From positions 1 through 10,865 of the forward strand of contig JACOEF010000132.1 of the NCBI GenBank assembly GCA_024998705.1: a stretch of DNA of 10,865 nt, in the 5' to 3' direction. Positions 2,939 through 8,637 of the stretch are shown one piece after another (the stretch's first letter is position 1; every line of letters begins with the position of its first letter). The notes beneath the pieces are model-generated. The model searched no databases and was not told the origin of the DNA. It was given only the letters and a program-made list of their open reading frames with translations. Both the position numbers and the translations under genes were made by a program. This stretch comes from Nitrospira sp. (lineage in GTDB: Bacteria; Nitrospirota; Nitrospiria; Nitrospirales; Nitrospiraceae).

Positions 2939-3421
2939 ATGCTGACCTTGCCTATGCTCGTTCGAAGTGCGGCTTGTCTGATCGGGCTCTGTGTCGGTTT
3001 CACGCCGGCGCTTGTCCACGCCGAAGAGGGTGCATCACGGTTTGTTCTGGAGCTGGACGGCCAGGCGGTGAAGGATTTGGTGAGCGGGCTGACCTGGGAG
3101 CGGGAACCGGATTATATCTTCGATGTGTGGGATCGCTCGATCGCTCGTTGCGCCACCAAAACGGTCGGTGGCCGACAGGGATGGCGCGCCCCTAGCATCG
3201 ACGAAATCAAGACGTTGGTTGATCTGGATCAGCAGGATCCCTCATTTCCGCCGGGGCATCCGTTTCGCAATATTCGGTCCGGCATCTATTGGACGGCAAC
3301 ACCCCATCCCACCGATGACATCGTCGCATGGCAACAAAGTTTCTTCTCCGGCCAAGCGGTGACCGATCAAAAATCAGGCATGCGCCGTCTCTGGTGCCTG
3401 CTGGGAGTCGCACCTAAGTAA
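2939..3421 (+). CDS. Secreted DUF1566 (Lcl C-terminal-like) domain protein
   Basis: Seen: 160 residues beginning with a signal peptide (hydrophobic core about 11-25, likely cut after V26-H27-A28). The mature part has the order typical of DUF1566: DLVSGLTWERE (46 onward), a Cys, GWRAPSIDEIKTLVDL (around 82), YWTAT (117-121), then an AWQQSFFSG stretch and a final WCL. Known: these domains are common in exported bacterial proteins and fold like a C-type-lectin/formylglycine-type scaffold; their role is mostly unknown. It lies 63 bases after the zinc-ribbon gene and could be in the same transcript. Start: ATG 2939 has only a weak GCCGGG upstream; ATG 2954 is possible and would still leave most of the signal peptide. 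Periplasmic or outer-membrane-exposed location is inferred. Confidence 0.85.
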   Translation: MLTLPMLVRSAACLIGLCVGFTPALVHAEEGASRFVLELDGQAVKDLVSGLTWEREPDYIFDVWDRSIARCATKTVGGRQGWRAPSIDEIKTLVDLDQQDPSFPPGHPFRNIRSGIYWTATPHPTDDIVAWQQSFFSGQAVTDQKSGMRRLWCLLGVAPK

Positions 3422-4006: not shown

Positions 4007-4081
4007 CCCGTCCTCTGAGTGCGGATGGTTATCTCGCTTCGCGACGAACGCATAGGCTGCGAGAAGTGCCTGCGCGTGATC

Positions 4082-4092: not shown

Positions 4093-5772
4093 ATGCCTGG
4101 CCGCTATCTAGAGCTGAAGCCGGTTCGCAGCACCCTGTGGGCAGAGGTGTCTCGGCTTGCGTTTGTGATCGGCCTCGAACAGCGCATTCTCACGCTCATC
4201 ATCTCCTACGCCTTGGCCATCGCTCTCTTTTCGTTGGTTGTTCCTCTGACCGTTCAGGAACTCGTCAATAGCTTCGCCTTTTCGATCCAGCCGGTCATGA
4301 TTGTGACCCTCGCACTGATCATTCTGATCGGGCTGCTTTTCATCGGGTTCTTCCGGGTCTTTCAGACGAGCGCGACGGAAATACTTTTTCAGCGGCTCTA
4401 TACCCGTATCGCGATCGCCATGACGGAACACCTGCCTCGGGTGCGGGAAGAGGTGTTCGTGCCCAGCTACGCGAACTACTTCGGAGAAGCGGAACTATTG
4501 CCGCGCGCGGTGGTGGTCGTGCTGGTCGACCTGATCAATGTGGTGATTTCCGATGCGACCTGGATGCTCATCCTCGTCGTCTATCATCCGAACTTCGTCG
4601 TCTACAACGCGTTTCTGATCGGCGGCTTTGTGCTGGTGCAATTCACCTCCGCGCGGGGAGGCGTTCAAGCGACGCAGACGGTCTCGCAACTCCATTACGA
4701 TCTCATGACCTGGATGCAGGATATCGCGCAAAACCGCCTGCATTTCAAAGCCACCCAGAGCGCGCCCTTGTTGCTCAGTAAAACCGATCGGTTGCTGGAT
4801 TCGTACTTGTCGGCGAGACGAGCCCGCTCCGGCGTGTTGACCTGGCGTCAGTATGTCAGCACGGTGATCTGGGAGGCGGTGTGCCATAGCAGCATGATCG
4901 GCATGGGCGGGTGGCTGCTGTCGATTGGGCAAATCACGCTCGGGCAGTTTGTGGCCGCCGAAGTCATCGTCGGCACACTCCTGCTCAATCTCGATACGGT
5001 GACGCGTCGAATGTACGCCGTCACCTATATCCTGACGTCCTTCGATGAGCTGACACGGGTTTTCTCCCTTCCCAAAGACGATGTCACAGAAGCGGCGTCG
5101 TTCGCGCGTATTGCCGATCCCGTGACCCACGGTCTTCGTGTGACGTGTAAGAATGCCGCGTTTGCCTATCCCAACTCCCCGCCGGTCATCGAGGGGTTCA
5201 ATTTGGAGGTGGTTCCCGGGGAAAAGGTGGCGGTCATTTCCTCGACCAGCACGGGGAAATCCACCCTCGCCCTCTTGCTGGCCGGGCTGTCTCGCCCGAC
5301 CGCCGGGGTGATTCGATTCAACGATGTGGACCTCCGCGAGATGACCATGGAGGATATCAATGCCGCTCGTGCGCTGGTTCTCGATTCGCATCTGACATTG
5401 TTCGGAGGGACGCTGGAGGAAAATATCTCACTCGGACGGCCGTCGGTCCACTTCGAAGACCTTCGCTGGGCGCTGAGGTTTACGGGGTTGGAAGACGATG
5501 CCGATAGATGGTCGCGCGGCCTGGAAACCCCGGCGCTGGCTGGAGGAAAGCTCTTCACGAAGAGTCAGATTCTTCGCATCCTGGTTGCCCGTGCGATCGT
5601 GACGCGGCCGCAATTGCTCATCTTCGACGGGACGTTACATAACATGGAACCGGATCTGAGGCAGATTCTGCTGCGGCGACTCTGTTCAAAGGAGGAAACG
5701 TGGTCGGTGATCTTCGTCACCAACGACCCTTCCATCGGAGAATATGTCGATCGCCGCGTCATGCTGGGGTGA
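4093..5772 (+). CDS. ABC half-transporter (TMD-NBD fusion) with degenerate ATPase motifs
   Basis: Seen: 559 residues. The N-terminal membrane domain (about 25-310) has roughly six hydrophobic segments, and the C-terminal ATPase domain spans about 340-559. Nearly every catalytic motif is altered. In Walker A the first Gly is Ser (S383, then STSTGKST, with K389 kept). The Q-loop Gln is replaced (D431 region). The LSGGQ signature position, ten residues before ARAI, reads FTKSQ (488-492). Walker B LLIFDG keeps D512 but has Gly513 for the catalytic Glu. The switch His is Asn (N544 in VTND). Known: half-transporters work as dimers, and sites with such changes bind ATP but hydrolyse poorly. Inference: it may pair with an active partner encoded elsewhere, or act as an ATP-gated channel or sensor. 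The membrane domain ends with GQITLGQFVAAEVIVG, as in many type-I exporters of unknown substrate. The reading frame is intact throughout, so this is not a decaying gene. Confidence 0.9.
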   Translation: MPGRYLELKPVRSTLWAEVSRLAFVIGLEQRILTLIISYALAIALFSLVVPLTVQELVNSFAFSIQPVMIVTLALIILIGLLFIGFFRVFQTSATEILFQRLYTRIAIAMTEHLPRVREEVFVPSYANYFGEAELLPRAVVVVLVDLINVVISDATWMLILVVYHPNFVVYNAFLIGGFVLVQFTSARGGVQATQTVSQLHYDLMTWMQDIAQNRLHFKATQSAPLLLSKTDRLLDSYLSARRARSGVLTWRQYVSTVIWEAVCHSSMIGMGGWLLSIGQITLGQFVAAEVIVGTLLLNLDTVTRRMYAVTYILTSFDELTRVFSLPKDDVTEAASFARIADPVTHGLRVTCKNAAFAYPNSPPVIEGFNLEVVPGEKVAVISSTSTGKSTLALLLAGLSRPTAGVIRFNDVDLREMTMEDINAARALVLDSHLTLFGGTLEENISLGRPSVHFEDLRWALRFTGLEDDADRWSRGLETPALAGGKLFTKSQILRILVARAIVTRPQLLIFDGTLHNMEPDLRQILLRRLCSKEETWSVIFVTNDPSIGEYVDRRVMLG

Positions 5773-5884: not shown

Positions 5885-7282
5885 ATGTTTAGGCCAATTC
5901 CCGAAGCCGCCTTCCTCCGGAGAGTTCCATATCGGTTGATCGCAGCAGTCTTGCTGATGTTGGCCTTGGTCGTGGCGGTTATTCTGCTCTTCAGTCTGGA
6001 GCAGGAGAAACTCCTCCTGCAGGGCGTCACTCAAGGCAAGACGGTTCCAACGGATCTGTTTCCAGCGCTGTGGCAGTCGCGTCGCGATTTGATGCTGGTC
6101 GCCCTCATTGTCTTTTTGGTAAGCGCGATCGGGATCACCGCGGTCATCACGTTTCTGCACTATGACAGCACCATTCGAACCCTCGAAGAAGTGAAAGGGC
6201 TGGCGCGCCACATTCTCCAGAGCATTCCGACCGGCGTGCTGACGCTGAATCGTCGGGGCATTATTACGGCCATTAATCCCTCGGCGGAGTCGGTCTTGAA
6301 ACGCGCGTCGATCGACATGCTGGGCTATTCGTACGAATCGGTGTTTACGGAGGGAAATCCTATTCGCGGGGCGCTCGATGCGGCGTTGCGGTCGCATGTC
6401 TACATGAGCCAGCGGGATCTGCCCTATGAACATCGTGATCGTACACCGCATACCATCCGCGTCAGCACGGCCGAATTGACCGGTGATGAGGGGCAATCGG
6501 CCGGCGTGATCCTCCAGGCGCAGGATGTGACGGAATGGTTGGCTCTTGAACGGAGAGTTCGGGTGGCCGAAAAGCTGGCGGCGTTGCATACGTTGTCTGC
6601 CGGGGTGGCGCATGAGTTGCGCAATCCGCTGAGTGCCATCGATTTGAATCTGCATCTCCTCGAAGAAGAATTCACGGAGCAAGGGGGGGCGGCGAAACAT
6701 GCCGCGCATTATCTTCAAGTGTTGAATGCCGAGTGCCGGCGTCTGTCGGTGATTCTCGATAATTTCATGAAATTCGCGCGGCCCGGTGTCATAGGGCTCC
6801 ACGCGGTGGATTTGCCTGCCCTGATGGCACACATCATGGCGCCGATGCAGTTCGAAGCGGATGAGCGCCGGATCGATTTGGAGCAACACGTGGGCCTGGA
6901 TATTCCTCCGGTGTTGGGCGACGAGACACAGATCAGCCAGGTATTGGTCAATATCGTCGTCAACGCCTTTCATGCCATGCCCAACGGCGGGAGATGCCGT
7001 ATCACGGCGGAACCTCGCACAGGGGAGGGGAAGCGCTGGGTGGCGATTGAAGTGAGCGACACGGGCATCGGTATTGAGCCGGACGACCTGCCGCGCCTTT
7101 TCGAGCCGTTCTACACGACCAAGTCCAGCGGAACCGGGCTCGGTCTCGCCATCGCCTACCGGATCATGCAGGATCACGACGGGACCATTCAGGTGTCGAG
7201 CGTGCCGGGGAGCGGGACTACGGTGGTGCTGCAATTTCCTGTTGCGGTCGATGAACAGCAGCGCGTTGTGGTGACATCATGA
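5885..7282 (+). CDS. Membrane-bound PAS sensor histidine kinase (NtrB/ZraS/AtoS type)
   Basis: Seen: 465 residues. Two membrane segments (18-37 and 69-90) enclose a short loop of about 30 residues outside the membrane. A PAS domain (about 105-215, IPTGVLTLNRRGIITAINPS) is followed by the dimerisation/phosphoacceptor helix with HELRNPLSAI (H243) and a HATPase domain with N-box N356/N360, G1 DTGIGI (D392) and G2 GTGLGLA (416-422). Known: such kinases autophosphorylate on the His and pass the phosphate to an NtrC-family regulator. No HAMP linker is evident. Start: ATG 5885 with an AGAGG just upstream. Its TGA overlaps the regulator's ATG (ATGA at 7279-7282), showing translational coupling. Inference: the small outer loop suggests that the signal is sensed by the PAS domain or in the membrane. 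The signal itself is unknown. Confidence 0.95.
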   Translation: MFRPIPEAAFLRRVPYRLIAAVLLMLALVVAVILLFSLEQEKLLLQGVTQGKTVPTDLFPALWQSRRDLMLVALIVFLVSAIGITAVITFLHYDSTIRTLEEVKGLARHILQSIPTGVLTLNRRGIITAINPSAESVLKRASIDMLGYSYESVFTEGNPIRGALDAALRSHVYMSQRDLPYEHRDRTPHTIRVSTAELTGDEGQSAGVILQAQDVTEWLALERRVRVAEKLAALHTLSAGVAHELRNPLSAIDLNLHLLEEEFTEQGGAAKHAAHYLQVLNAECRRLSVILDNFMKFARPGVIGLHAVDLPALMAHIMAPMQFEADERRIDLEQHVGLDIPPVLGDETQISQVLVNIVVNAFHAMPNGGRCRITAEPRTGEGKRWVAIEVSDTGIGIEPDDLPRLFEPFYTTKSSGTGLGLAIAYRIMQDHDGTIQVSSVPGSGTTVVLQFPVAVDEQQRVVVTS

Positions 7283-8637
7283 CGCCAGGCGCCGACATCC
7301 TGGTCGTAGACGATGAGGTCAATATCCGCGGCGCGTTGGTGACGTTGCTTGAAAAGAAAGGTCACCGTGTGCGCGGAGCCGGGACGGGGGAAGAAGCCCT
7401 GGAGCAGTTGGAGGCCGCCGCCGCGGATTTGGTGATGACCGATCTGAAGATGCCGGGGATTGGCGGCATGGAGTTCCTTCGACGCCTGAAGGGAAAGTGG
7501 CCGGATACGGAAGTTGTGGTGATGACGGCGTATGGATCGATCGATACGGCAGTGGAAGCGATGCGCTGCGGCGCATACGATTACCTCACCAAACCGATCG
7601 ATCGTGAGCGGTTCCCCTGCGTGGTGGAGAAGGCGCTTGAGCGTCATGCGCTGGCGAGCGAGAACAGGCAGCTCAGGAACCACCTTGAAACGCGCACCCG
7701 CTTCGATCAAATGGTGGGTGAGAGCGAGCCGCTGCGGCGTGTCTATGACCTGGTTGAGATGGTGGCCGAGAGCGACGTCACAGTATTGTTGACGGGAGAA
7801 AGCGGCACGGGGAAGGAGCTGGTCGCCCGGGCCATCCATCATCGGAGTGCCCGCGCGAACGGACCGTTCATCACGCTGAACTGCGGGGCATTGCCGGAGA
7901 ATCTGTTTGAAAGCGAACTGTTCGGCTACGACAAGGGCGCGTTTACCGGAGCGATGACGACGAAGTTGGGGCGATTCGAGCTCGCACATGAAGGTACGCT
8001 GCTGCTGGATGAGGTGGGCGAGCTGTCGCTGAAATCACAGGTGGATTTTCTGCGCGTGTTGGAGACGAAGGAATTCAGGCGCCTGGGTGGAACGAAGGTG
8101 ATTAGCGTCGATGCCCGGATCATTGCCGCCACGAATCGCAATCTGGAGGAGGCCGTCAAGCAGGGCGATTTTCGAGAGGATCTCTACTATCGACTCAATG
8201 TCGTTCCGATCCACCTGCCGCCGTTGCGTGAGCGTTCCGAGGATATCCCGCTGCTCGTGATTCAGTTTTTGACCGCGTTCTCTGCCCAACATCGCCGTGA
8301 ACCAAAGGAGGTGTCTCGCGATGCGATGCGGTCGCTTCGTCTCTATGCGTGGCCCGGGAATATTCGCCAGCTCCGGAATCTCATGGAGCGGCTAGTGGTG
8401 ACCGTAAAGGATACAACCATTCAATCCGAACATCTTCCCGAAGAGATCCAGGCCAGTAAGGAGGATGCCCGTACAATGCTCGTGACCCTGGGGATGTCAT
8501 TGGAGCAGATCGAACGGGATGTCATTCAACGAACCTTGGCTGAAGTCACGAATCATCGCGAAAAAGCGGCGAAACTTCTTGGCATCAGTCTTCGCGCGTT
8601 GCAGTACAAGATTAAAGAATACGGTATCCGCGGCTAA
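7279..8637 (+). CDS. NtrC-family sigma-54-dependent response regulator
   Basis: Seen: 452 residues in the canonical order. The receiver domain has an acidic pocket in VVDDE, phosphoacceptor D55 in MTDLKMPG, and K105 in LTKPI. The AAA+ domain has Walker A GESGTGKE (173-180), the sigma-54-contact loop GAFTGA (220-225), and Walker B LLLDE (D244, E245). A Fis-type helix-turn-helix fills about 410-452 (NHREKAAKLLGISLRALQYKIKEYGI). Known: these proteins use ATP hydrolysis to open sigma-54 RNA polymerase promoters after phosphorylation. All key residues are present, so it should be functional. It overlaps the kinase gene by 4 bases and is its cognate partner. Targets are not shown by the sequence; I saw no clear -24/-12 site in front of this operon. 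It could equally be called ZraR-, AtoC- or HydG-like, so no symbol is given. Confidence 0.96.
   Translation: MTPGADILVVDDEVNIRGALVTLLEKKGHRVRGAGTGEEALEQLEAAAADLVMTDLKMPGIGGMEFLRRLKGKWPDTEVVVMTAYGSIDTAVEAMRCGAYDYLTKPIDRERFPCVVEKALERHALASENRQLRNHLETRTRFDQMVGESEPLRRVYDLVEMVAESDVTVLLTGESGTGKELVARAIHHRSARANGPFITLNCGALPENLFESELFGYDKGAFTGAMTTKLGRFELAHEGTLLLDEVGELSLKSQVDFLRVLETKEFRRLGGTKVISVDARIIAATNRNLEEAVKQGDFREDLYYRLNVVPIHLPPLRERSEDIPLLVIQFLTAFSAQHRREPKEVSRDAMRSLRLYAWPGNIRQLRNLMERLVVTVKDTTIQSEHLPEEIQASKEDARTMLVTLGMSLEQIERDVIQRTLAEVTNHREKAAKLLGISLRALQYKIKEYGIRG

Follow-up and report, generated by a model that had tools for sequence, protein, structure and literature searches.

The window, which is the whole 10,865-nucleotide stretch of Nitrospira DNA analysed here, carries at 4093-5772 an open, undamaged reading frame of 559 amino acids (translation). 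The ATG at 4093 is favoured as the start over an upstream GTG at 4066 because many homologues are also 559 amino acids long. The product is an ABC half-exporter with altered ATPase motifs, and genes for a histidine kinase and a response regulator follow it. The features are listed below with the evidence for each.

4093..5772, + strand: putatively ATPase-dead ABC half-exporter, a lone paralogue linked to NtrBC (559 aa; translation, homologues, Pfam, hhalign)
4093..5127, + strand: transmembrane half, aa 1-345, domain border approximate (hhalign against canonical exporters, hydropathy peaks)
5128..5769, + strand: degenerate nucleotide-binding domain, aa 346-559 (Pfam ABC_tran at aa 367-512)
5239..5265, + strand: Walker A remnant SSTSTGKST, aa 383-391 (alignment, DNA read-out)
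5374..5403, + strand: Q-loop region LVLDSHLTLF, aa 428-437, lacking the Gln (alignment, DNA read-out)
5554..5568, + strand: signature remnant FTKSQ, aa 488-492 (alignment, DNA read-out)
5614..5640, + strand: Walker B and new fixed motif, LLIFD-G513-TL-H516 (family residue table)
5707..5733, + strand: H-loop remnant VIFVT-N544-D545-PS (family residue table)
5885..7282, + strand: histidine kinase (PAS, HisKA, HATPase_c), the next gene of window-type copies (Pfam, gene order)
7279..8637, + strand: NtrC/AtoC-type sigma-54 response regulator (NCBIfam, below the curated cut-offs of the named equivalogs; gene order)

Upstream, two neighbouring membrane proteins (1193-2143 and 2147-2875) carry HELGH and HEAGH motifs and look M50-like by eye; the first has no NCBIfam match. 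An Lcl_C domain protein (2939-3421) comes next, and this order is kept in N. defluvii (L033).

ATPase motifs of the window protein

The nucleotide-binding domain (NBD) is matched by Pfam ABC_tran (PF00005) at 47.2 bits against a cut-off of 25. ABC_membrane gave no match in the protein. In a profile-profile comparison by hhalign (probability 100, E 7.6e-42), the alignment of canonical exporters with the family to which the protein belongs spans 507 columns. On these alignments the protein is predicted to have the type I ABC exporter fold, with an N-terminal exporter transmembrane domain (TMD) fused to a C-terminal NBD.

Both Walker A glycines of the canonical G-xx-G-x-GK[ST] are replaced (S383 and S386), and G388, K389 and S390 are kept. 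In the family alignment S432 stands opposite the Q-loop Gln of four canonical half-exporters from the same genome; MAFFT set a gap there in other alignments, and the exact partner is position 431 or 432. The LSGGQ signature reads F488-T-K-S-Q492, with Q492 kept. Walker B is LLIFD512-G513, in which D512 is kept and the catalytic Glu has become Gly. The H-loop reads VIFVTN544-D, with Asn for His. The A-loop Tyr (FAYP) is retained. All four reference exporters have canonical motifs at these places, one of them in the form LSVGQ.

The original prediction had named Ser383, the missing Q-loop Gln, FTKSQ at 488-492, Gly513 and Asn544 as altered, and K389 and D512 as kept, in an undamaged frame. The DNA read-out and the alignment agree at every altered position and add S386, which had not been named. 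The read-out likewise returns both retained residues, and translation the open frame. Aligned with the four canonical half-exporters, the domain has no canonical motifs elsewhere, and a pattern check of the C-terminal part of the protein found no other LSGGQ-like or DEAT-like stretch. A single regular-expression flag in a relative (L098) proved to be a chance match in the membrane part. With its motifs so altered, a homodimer would hardly hydrolyse ATP, as had been predicted. The window copy keeps Lys389, Gly388 and the A-loop Tyr and may still bind nucleotide.

Residue census and selection across the family

A homologue search with the window protein gave 1236 matches, of which the best 120 share 58-99% identity with it; the named ones among these are mostly Nitrospira. 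A second search used a distant member as query (best 120 of 1192), and the names among its listed matches are Nitrospirales, Ca. Nitronereus thalassa and four Nitrospinota. Family members are annotated in the database as 'ABC transporter ATP-binding protein'. We tabulated 353 distinct sequences, drawn from the listed matches of both searches and from genome loci. This set includes near-identical pairs (loci and database clusters), fragments (e.g. P0065 and L076) and two paralogues with X at a stop, and sequences were entered into the alignment without their insertions.

Not one of the 353 has the catalytic Glu513, the H-loop His544 or the first signature Gly (Gly490). At position 513, 350 sequences have Gly and 3 have Ser, and one sequence has no residue at 544. 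Gln432 is found in 8/353 and the Walker B Asp in 303/353. The Walker A Lys is present in 213 sequences and lost in 140 (Arg in 127, another residue in 13), so that even ATP binding looks dispensable; Gly388 varies even among the near relatives of the window protein. H516 occurs in 337/353 and D545 in 343/353, where the canonical references (n = 4) have N or S at 516 and, at 545, R in three and D in one. Because the same positions are altered throughout the members examined, the change goes beyond chance.

Among 56 diverse members, mean column entropy is 1.29 bits in the NBD and 1.30 bits in the TMD, the former being as conserved as the latter. G513, H516, D545, R426, W537 and R500 are invariant (56/56), and the columns of the NBD that vary more include those of the Walker A glycines and position 490 of the signature. 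This pattern fits an NBD kept for a new purpose rather than one under relaxed constraint. A repurposed active site, with H516, D545 and R426 carrying out another reaction or binding another ligand or metal, has this in its favour: G513, H516 and D545 never vary in the 56, and the canonical references differ at 516 and mostly at 545. The Walker A glycine positions are free to vary, however, no catalytic logic is evident, and the invariance may be structural. We consider such a site highly doubtful.

Selection was estimated from dN/dS. Against three orthologues the window copy gives 0.117, 0.135 and 0.123 over the whole gene, and 0.159, 0.202 and 0.115 for the NBD in the same comparisons. The value against N. 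defluvii is 0.117 (TMD 0.099, NBD 0.159). For the operon copies described below, dN/dS is 0.049 for copy 2 (NBD 0.044) and 0.032 for a fragment of copy 1. The corresponding value for a canonical, type I secretion-like ABC from this genome is 0.101, at a dS of 1.6 that is near saturation. By these estimates the degenerate domain is under purifying selection. In the window copy the constraint on the NBD is somewhat weaker in two comparisons (0.16 and 0.20), with 0.115 in the third.

These values bear on whether the family consists of decaying pseudogenes or the product of assembly error. Two of the four copies in the draft genome do have an in-frame stop. Against this stand whole-gene dN/dS of 0.03-0.14, open frames in orthologues from many independent genomes, and the same fixed changes throughout the members examined. 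The constraint refutes pseudogene decay for the family, and we regard this explanation as practically negligible. A recent loss or assembly error confined to the window copy, which the original prediction had named as a way to be wrong, fares no better: orthologues keep the altered motifs, with Glu513, His544 and Gly490 in 0/353, and the dN/dS values speak against it as well.

Genomic setting and distribution

The genome of the window (G000) has four family copies, all dead by the residues above: the window copy, a tandem pair on contig C1022 and one on C270. Its close relatives there are these three dead paralogues only; 13 further matches are weaker, and the four of them looked at are ordinary ABC exporters. 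The window copy is a lone paralogue beside NtrB/NtrC, and the HlyD-type adaptor and TolC are not at its locus. They lie in an operon of the same genome, with the adaptor split between the ends of C535 and C1022 and followed by TolC, two dead ABCs and a 4HB gene. One of these two ABCs has a stop. The in-frame TAGs, one each, are in C1022:2506-4125 and C270:12515-14128 of G000 (L003, L004), and orthologues elsewhere are intact; the stops may be draft errors or real losses. Members of the C270 type (L004, L021, L128) are lone copies too. Downstream of them, and in L128 one gene further on, lies a gene coding for about 257 aa that by eye resembles a glycosyltransferase.

The usual family locus is different. 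We searched 98 loci (L013-L110) by tblastn at E <= 1e-25 within 8 kb, with at least 65% identity for NtrB and 70% for NtrC; L135 and L136 were left out. Adaptor and TolC lie within 8 kb of a family member in 85/98, and 42 of these also have the 4HB gene. Two locus pairs are the same place, so the count of distinct loci is 84/96. Of the remaining loci, 8 have NtrB and NtrC instead and 1 has NtrC alone at the cut-off. L046 and L062, on short contigs, yielded only the 4HB gene; L021 and L032 yielded no adaptor, TolC, 4HB, NtrB or NtrC at the cut-offs used. The two locus types are exclusive in this search, with no NtrB/NtrC pair in adaptor/TolC loci and no adaptor in window-type loci.

In the window's genus and several others of its family (f1), the order is purK-purE / adaptor - TolC - dead ABC (- dead ABC) - 4HB_MCP / rsuA-like, where the names purE, purK and rsuA were read by eye and not from a family search. 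Gene clustering shows that another part of f1 has variants in which the adaptor follows the ABC, and that the order in a second family (f2) is adaptor - TolC - dead ABC. In one subgroup (L084, L098, L104 and similar loci), an unbroken run of two to five TolC-type ORFs stands before the dead ABC and the adaptor comes after it. Adaptor and channel were identified by Pfam and NCBIfam, with NCBIfam scores below cut-off. The adaptor hits HlyD_3 and has a weak TIGR01843 hit (77 bits against a cut-off of 209), the channel protein hits OEP at 108.9 bits, and 4HB_MCP_1 is the match of the accessory protein.

Adaptor and dead ABC are found together across genomes. The adaptor occurs in 78 of the 295 sampled, namely in 77/77 dead-ABC carriers and in G105, and neither gene occurs in the other 217; the co-occurrence lies within one order, and relatedness inflates the count. 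G105 (2.0 Mb) has its adaptor (L115, G105:C3:7316-8605) between rsuA-like and purE-like genes, and purK also remains. TolC and dead ABC were not seen at this locus, the sole adaptor-only case in the 295 genomes.

Could the window protein be the silent half of a heterodimer, as the original prediction had proposed, with an active half-transporter encoded elsewhere that supplies one competent site? Degenerate sites in asymmetric exporters are well known (as set out in the accessible part of PMC7756269). Many other ABC domains are encoded in the genome, along with canonical half-exporters, of which the nearest, on C377, is 30% identical over the NBD. Exporter-like ABC proteins occur at E <= 1e-90 in 253/295 sampled genomes, which makes a partner in trans conceivable. 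A competent composite site requires the signature from the silent partner, however, and the signature is altered in 353/353 family sequences. Another NBD is present in just 3/98 loci (L014, L015, L076), 4 to 9 kb away and never adjoining the gene. A screen for an active partner beside the genes flagged 6/93 loci, of which 3 proved to hold family members and 3 true other ABC ATPase genes; L032, L036, L037, L044 and L074 have only family members and no other ABC ATPase domain. The tandem partners are dead too. For LssB-type partners, which were the ones covered, 26/77 carriers have no ABC match at E < 1e-130, a threshold chosen in this analysis. The LssB-type ABC of the window's own genome has an adaptor of its own, 25% identical to that of the family. 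No co-encoded active half was found among the close relatives in the own genome, in the tandem pair or adjoining the family genes at the 98 loci. The paralogues, the tandem pair and the neighbourhoods give the proposal no support, and we judge it distinctly unlikely.

Window-type copies lie away from the operon with kinase/regulator genes near (L019/L033, L022, L034-L039, and L117, L118, L125 and L126; some are from the same genomes as others). NtrC is near such a copy in 9/98 loci, with NtrB in 8/9 at the cut-off and in the ninth (L038) called by gene clustering. The regulator is found in 33/295 genomes at E <= 1e-180, and by coordinates it adjoins a window-type copy in 8 (G000, G055, G060, G077, G153, G220, G226, G280). 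In G286, which has a window-type copy, the regulator was not found at E <= 1e-180.

The original prediction had also offered an ATP-bound sensor. As an ATP- or ligand-binding sensor, the window copy would bind nucleotide without hydrolysis and signal to NtrB/NtrC. This is possible for the window clade, given K389, S390, D512 and the A-loop Tyr in the window protein and the NtrC genes nearby, with both NtrB and NtrC in L117, L118, L125 and L126. It does not hold for the family, because the Walker A Lys is lost in 140/353 relatives and Gly388 varies among near ones, and nucleotide sensing is therefore not the family's function. The regulator, moreover, is beside a window-type copy in only 8 of the 33 genomes that have it. 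We consider the sensor unlikely.

The family is present in 77/295 sampled genomes of the phylum at E <= 1e-40, a sample in which genomes are related to one another. Carriers comprise 69 genomes of f1 (10 listed f1 genomes are without it) and 8 of f2. No match at this threshold was found in the sampled genomes outside one order, which we infer to be Nitrospirales. Four Nitrospinota proteins belong to the family: P0194, P0202 (Ca. Nitronauta litoralis), P0203 and P0217. They fall in two places inside the f2 side of a tree of 48 sequences, thinly sampled from 33 of 120 listed proteins and 15 locus proteins, and these two positions suggest exchange between the phyla. The branch that joins the family to canonical exporters is very long, which makes the root of the family tree unreliable. 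L057 and L083 are family members from contigs that bear the labels Acidimicrobiia and Nitrosospira; they fall among Nitrospira sequences in the tree and so probably come from mislabelled or mixed bins. An NxrB match above 90% identity is found in 51/77 carriers, and 18 genomes that do not have the family show one as well. The link is therefore to lineage, and these counts rule out nitrite oxidation as a strict correlate; nxr is often missing from draft genomes.

A candidate inner-membrane gate and its relation to known systems

An exporter dimer has two composite sites, and in each of them one half contributes the Walker motifs and the other half the signature. The same background is given in the accessible part of PMC7756269. 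Since neither contribution to a site is intact in the members examined, and given the operon context, we favour a tripartite complex in which the protein serves, without hydrolysing ATP, as platform or gate at the inner membrane, with the NBD kept for another job. We hold this to be about evenly poised between right and wrong. Its starting points are direct observations: ATPase residues absent in all members examined, selection on the protein, the gene neighbourhood and the co-occurrence with the adaptor.

In the favoured scheme, the dead ABC would occupy the inner-membrane position of a complex with the HlyD-type adaptor and the TolC-type channel. Two dead ABC subunits, either the same or paralogues, would dimerise to form the platform and gate that holds adaptor and channel. 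The remodelled NBD pair may act as a fixed dimerisation or gating element, and the gate would open through ligand or protein contacts. If anything is transported, this would happen passively, along a gradient or with power from elsewhere. The window copy, which has no adaptor genes of its own and is linked to the adaptor only indirectly, could be an alternative inner-membrane subunit that uses the adaptor and channel of the operon and is controlled by, or reports to, the NtrB/NtrC pair. More tentatively, and somewhat short of even confidence, we propose that Nitrospirales and Nitrospinota have envelope-spanning tripartite machines based on an ABC exporter that do not hydrolyse ATP and in many members do not bind it. 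These type I secretion-like conduits would work as an ATP-independent gate or sensor in which new invariant residues replace the catalytic centre.

ABC exporters are taken to depend on ATP hydrolysis for their work. Degenerate ABC sites are known, but to our knowledge with a competent one beside them. A competent site beside the degenerate one is also what the accessible part of PMC7756269 describes. The dead-ABC family is a natural experiment, an exporter fold with NBDs and without the motor: it is conserved across much of an order and co-inherited with adaptor and channel genes, and every catalytic residue is gone. Nitrospira is ecologically central and hard to manipulate. It gains a lineage-specific envelope system behind a generic 'ABC transporter ATP-binding protein' label, and the carriers, many of them nitrite oxidizers, seem to retain a machine resembling a pump in which the motor domain has stopped burning ATP. 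Among the open-licence papers listed by literature searches, none describes the family, going by titles and abstract openings.

Several known systems resemble the family in part. The best NCBIfam match of the window protein is to NHLM/NHLP bacteriocin exporters (TIGR03796, TIGR03797), at 153 bits against a cut-off of 853, and the best PDB matches covering most of its length are ComA/PCAT1-type exporters (ComA 8hf7, positions 23-556). Unlike either, it lacks a C39 peptidase part and its motifs are dead. Type I secretion ABC exporters (HlyB/LssB/PrtD; TIGR03375, TIGR01842, TIGR01846) share full-length homology; neighbours of the HlyD and TolC families stand at 85/98 loci of the dead-ABC family and are absent from the window locus itself, and in gene set the adaptor/TolC/dead-ABC operon resembles a type I secretion system. 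The window protein nevertheless scores far under their NCBIfam cut-offs (LssB 136 against 693, PrtD 95 against 510, HlyB 91 against 726), has every ATPase motif altered and, at 559 aa, has no N-terminal extra domain. The LssB test is strict, because 0/295 genomes have a match over its cut-off; the genome's canonical type I exporters are below it too. The residues that ATP-driven substrate export would call for are absent in the family members examined. With such scores and no ATPase residues, the family is not filed as a member of the type I secretion system.

In print, the nearest precedent that we found for adaptor loci lacking an active ABC is the SecA_DEAD / HlyD / M50 locus of planctomycetes and others, including one Nitrospirae member (accessible part of PMC4452313). 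There too a type I secretion-like adaptor locus stands without an active ABC, and its authors, in that part of the text, found no ABC homologue (PMC4452313). Among eight family-bearing genomes searched, a second strong SecA is found in one (G055), and in two more the second match is weak and falls below the cut-off; with 1/8, SecA is not a general energiser here. The second SecA_DEAD protein of N. defluvii (G055 C1:2665076-2666239, 697 aa frame), which has no counterpart of that strength in the other seven, may be the Nitrospirae case of PMC4452313.

Asymmetric exporters with one degenerate site, such as TM287/288, TmrAB, TAP and CFTR, are the well-known parallel for a lost catalytic Glu and other missing motif residues (accessible part of PMC7756269). 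They keep one competent site, as described there, whereas the tandem and single operon dead ABCs lack the residues on both sides.
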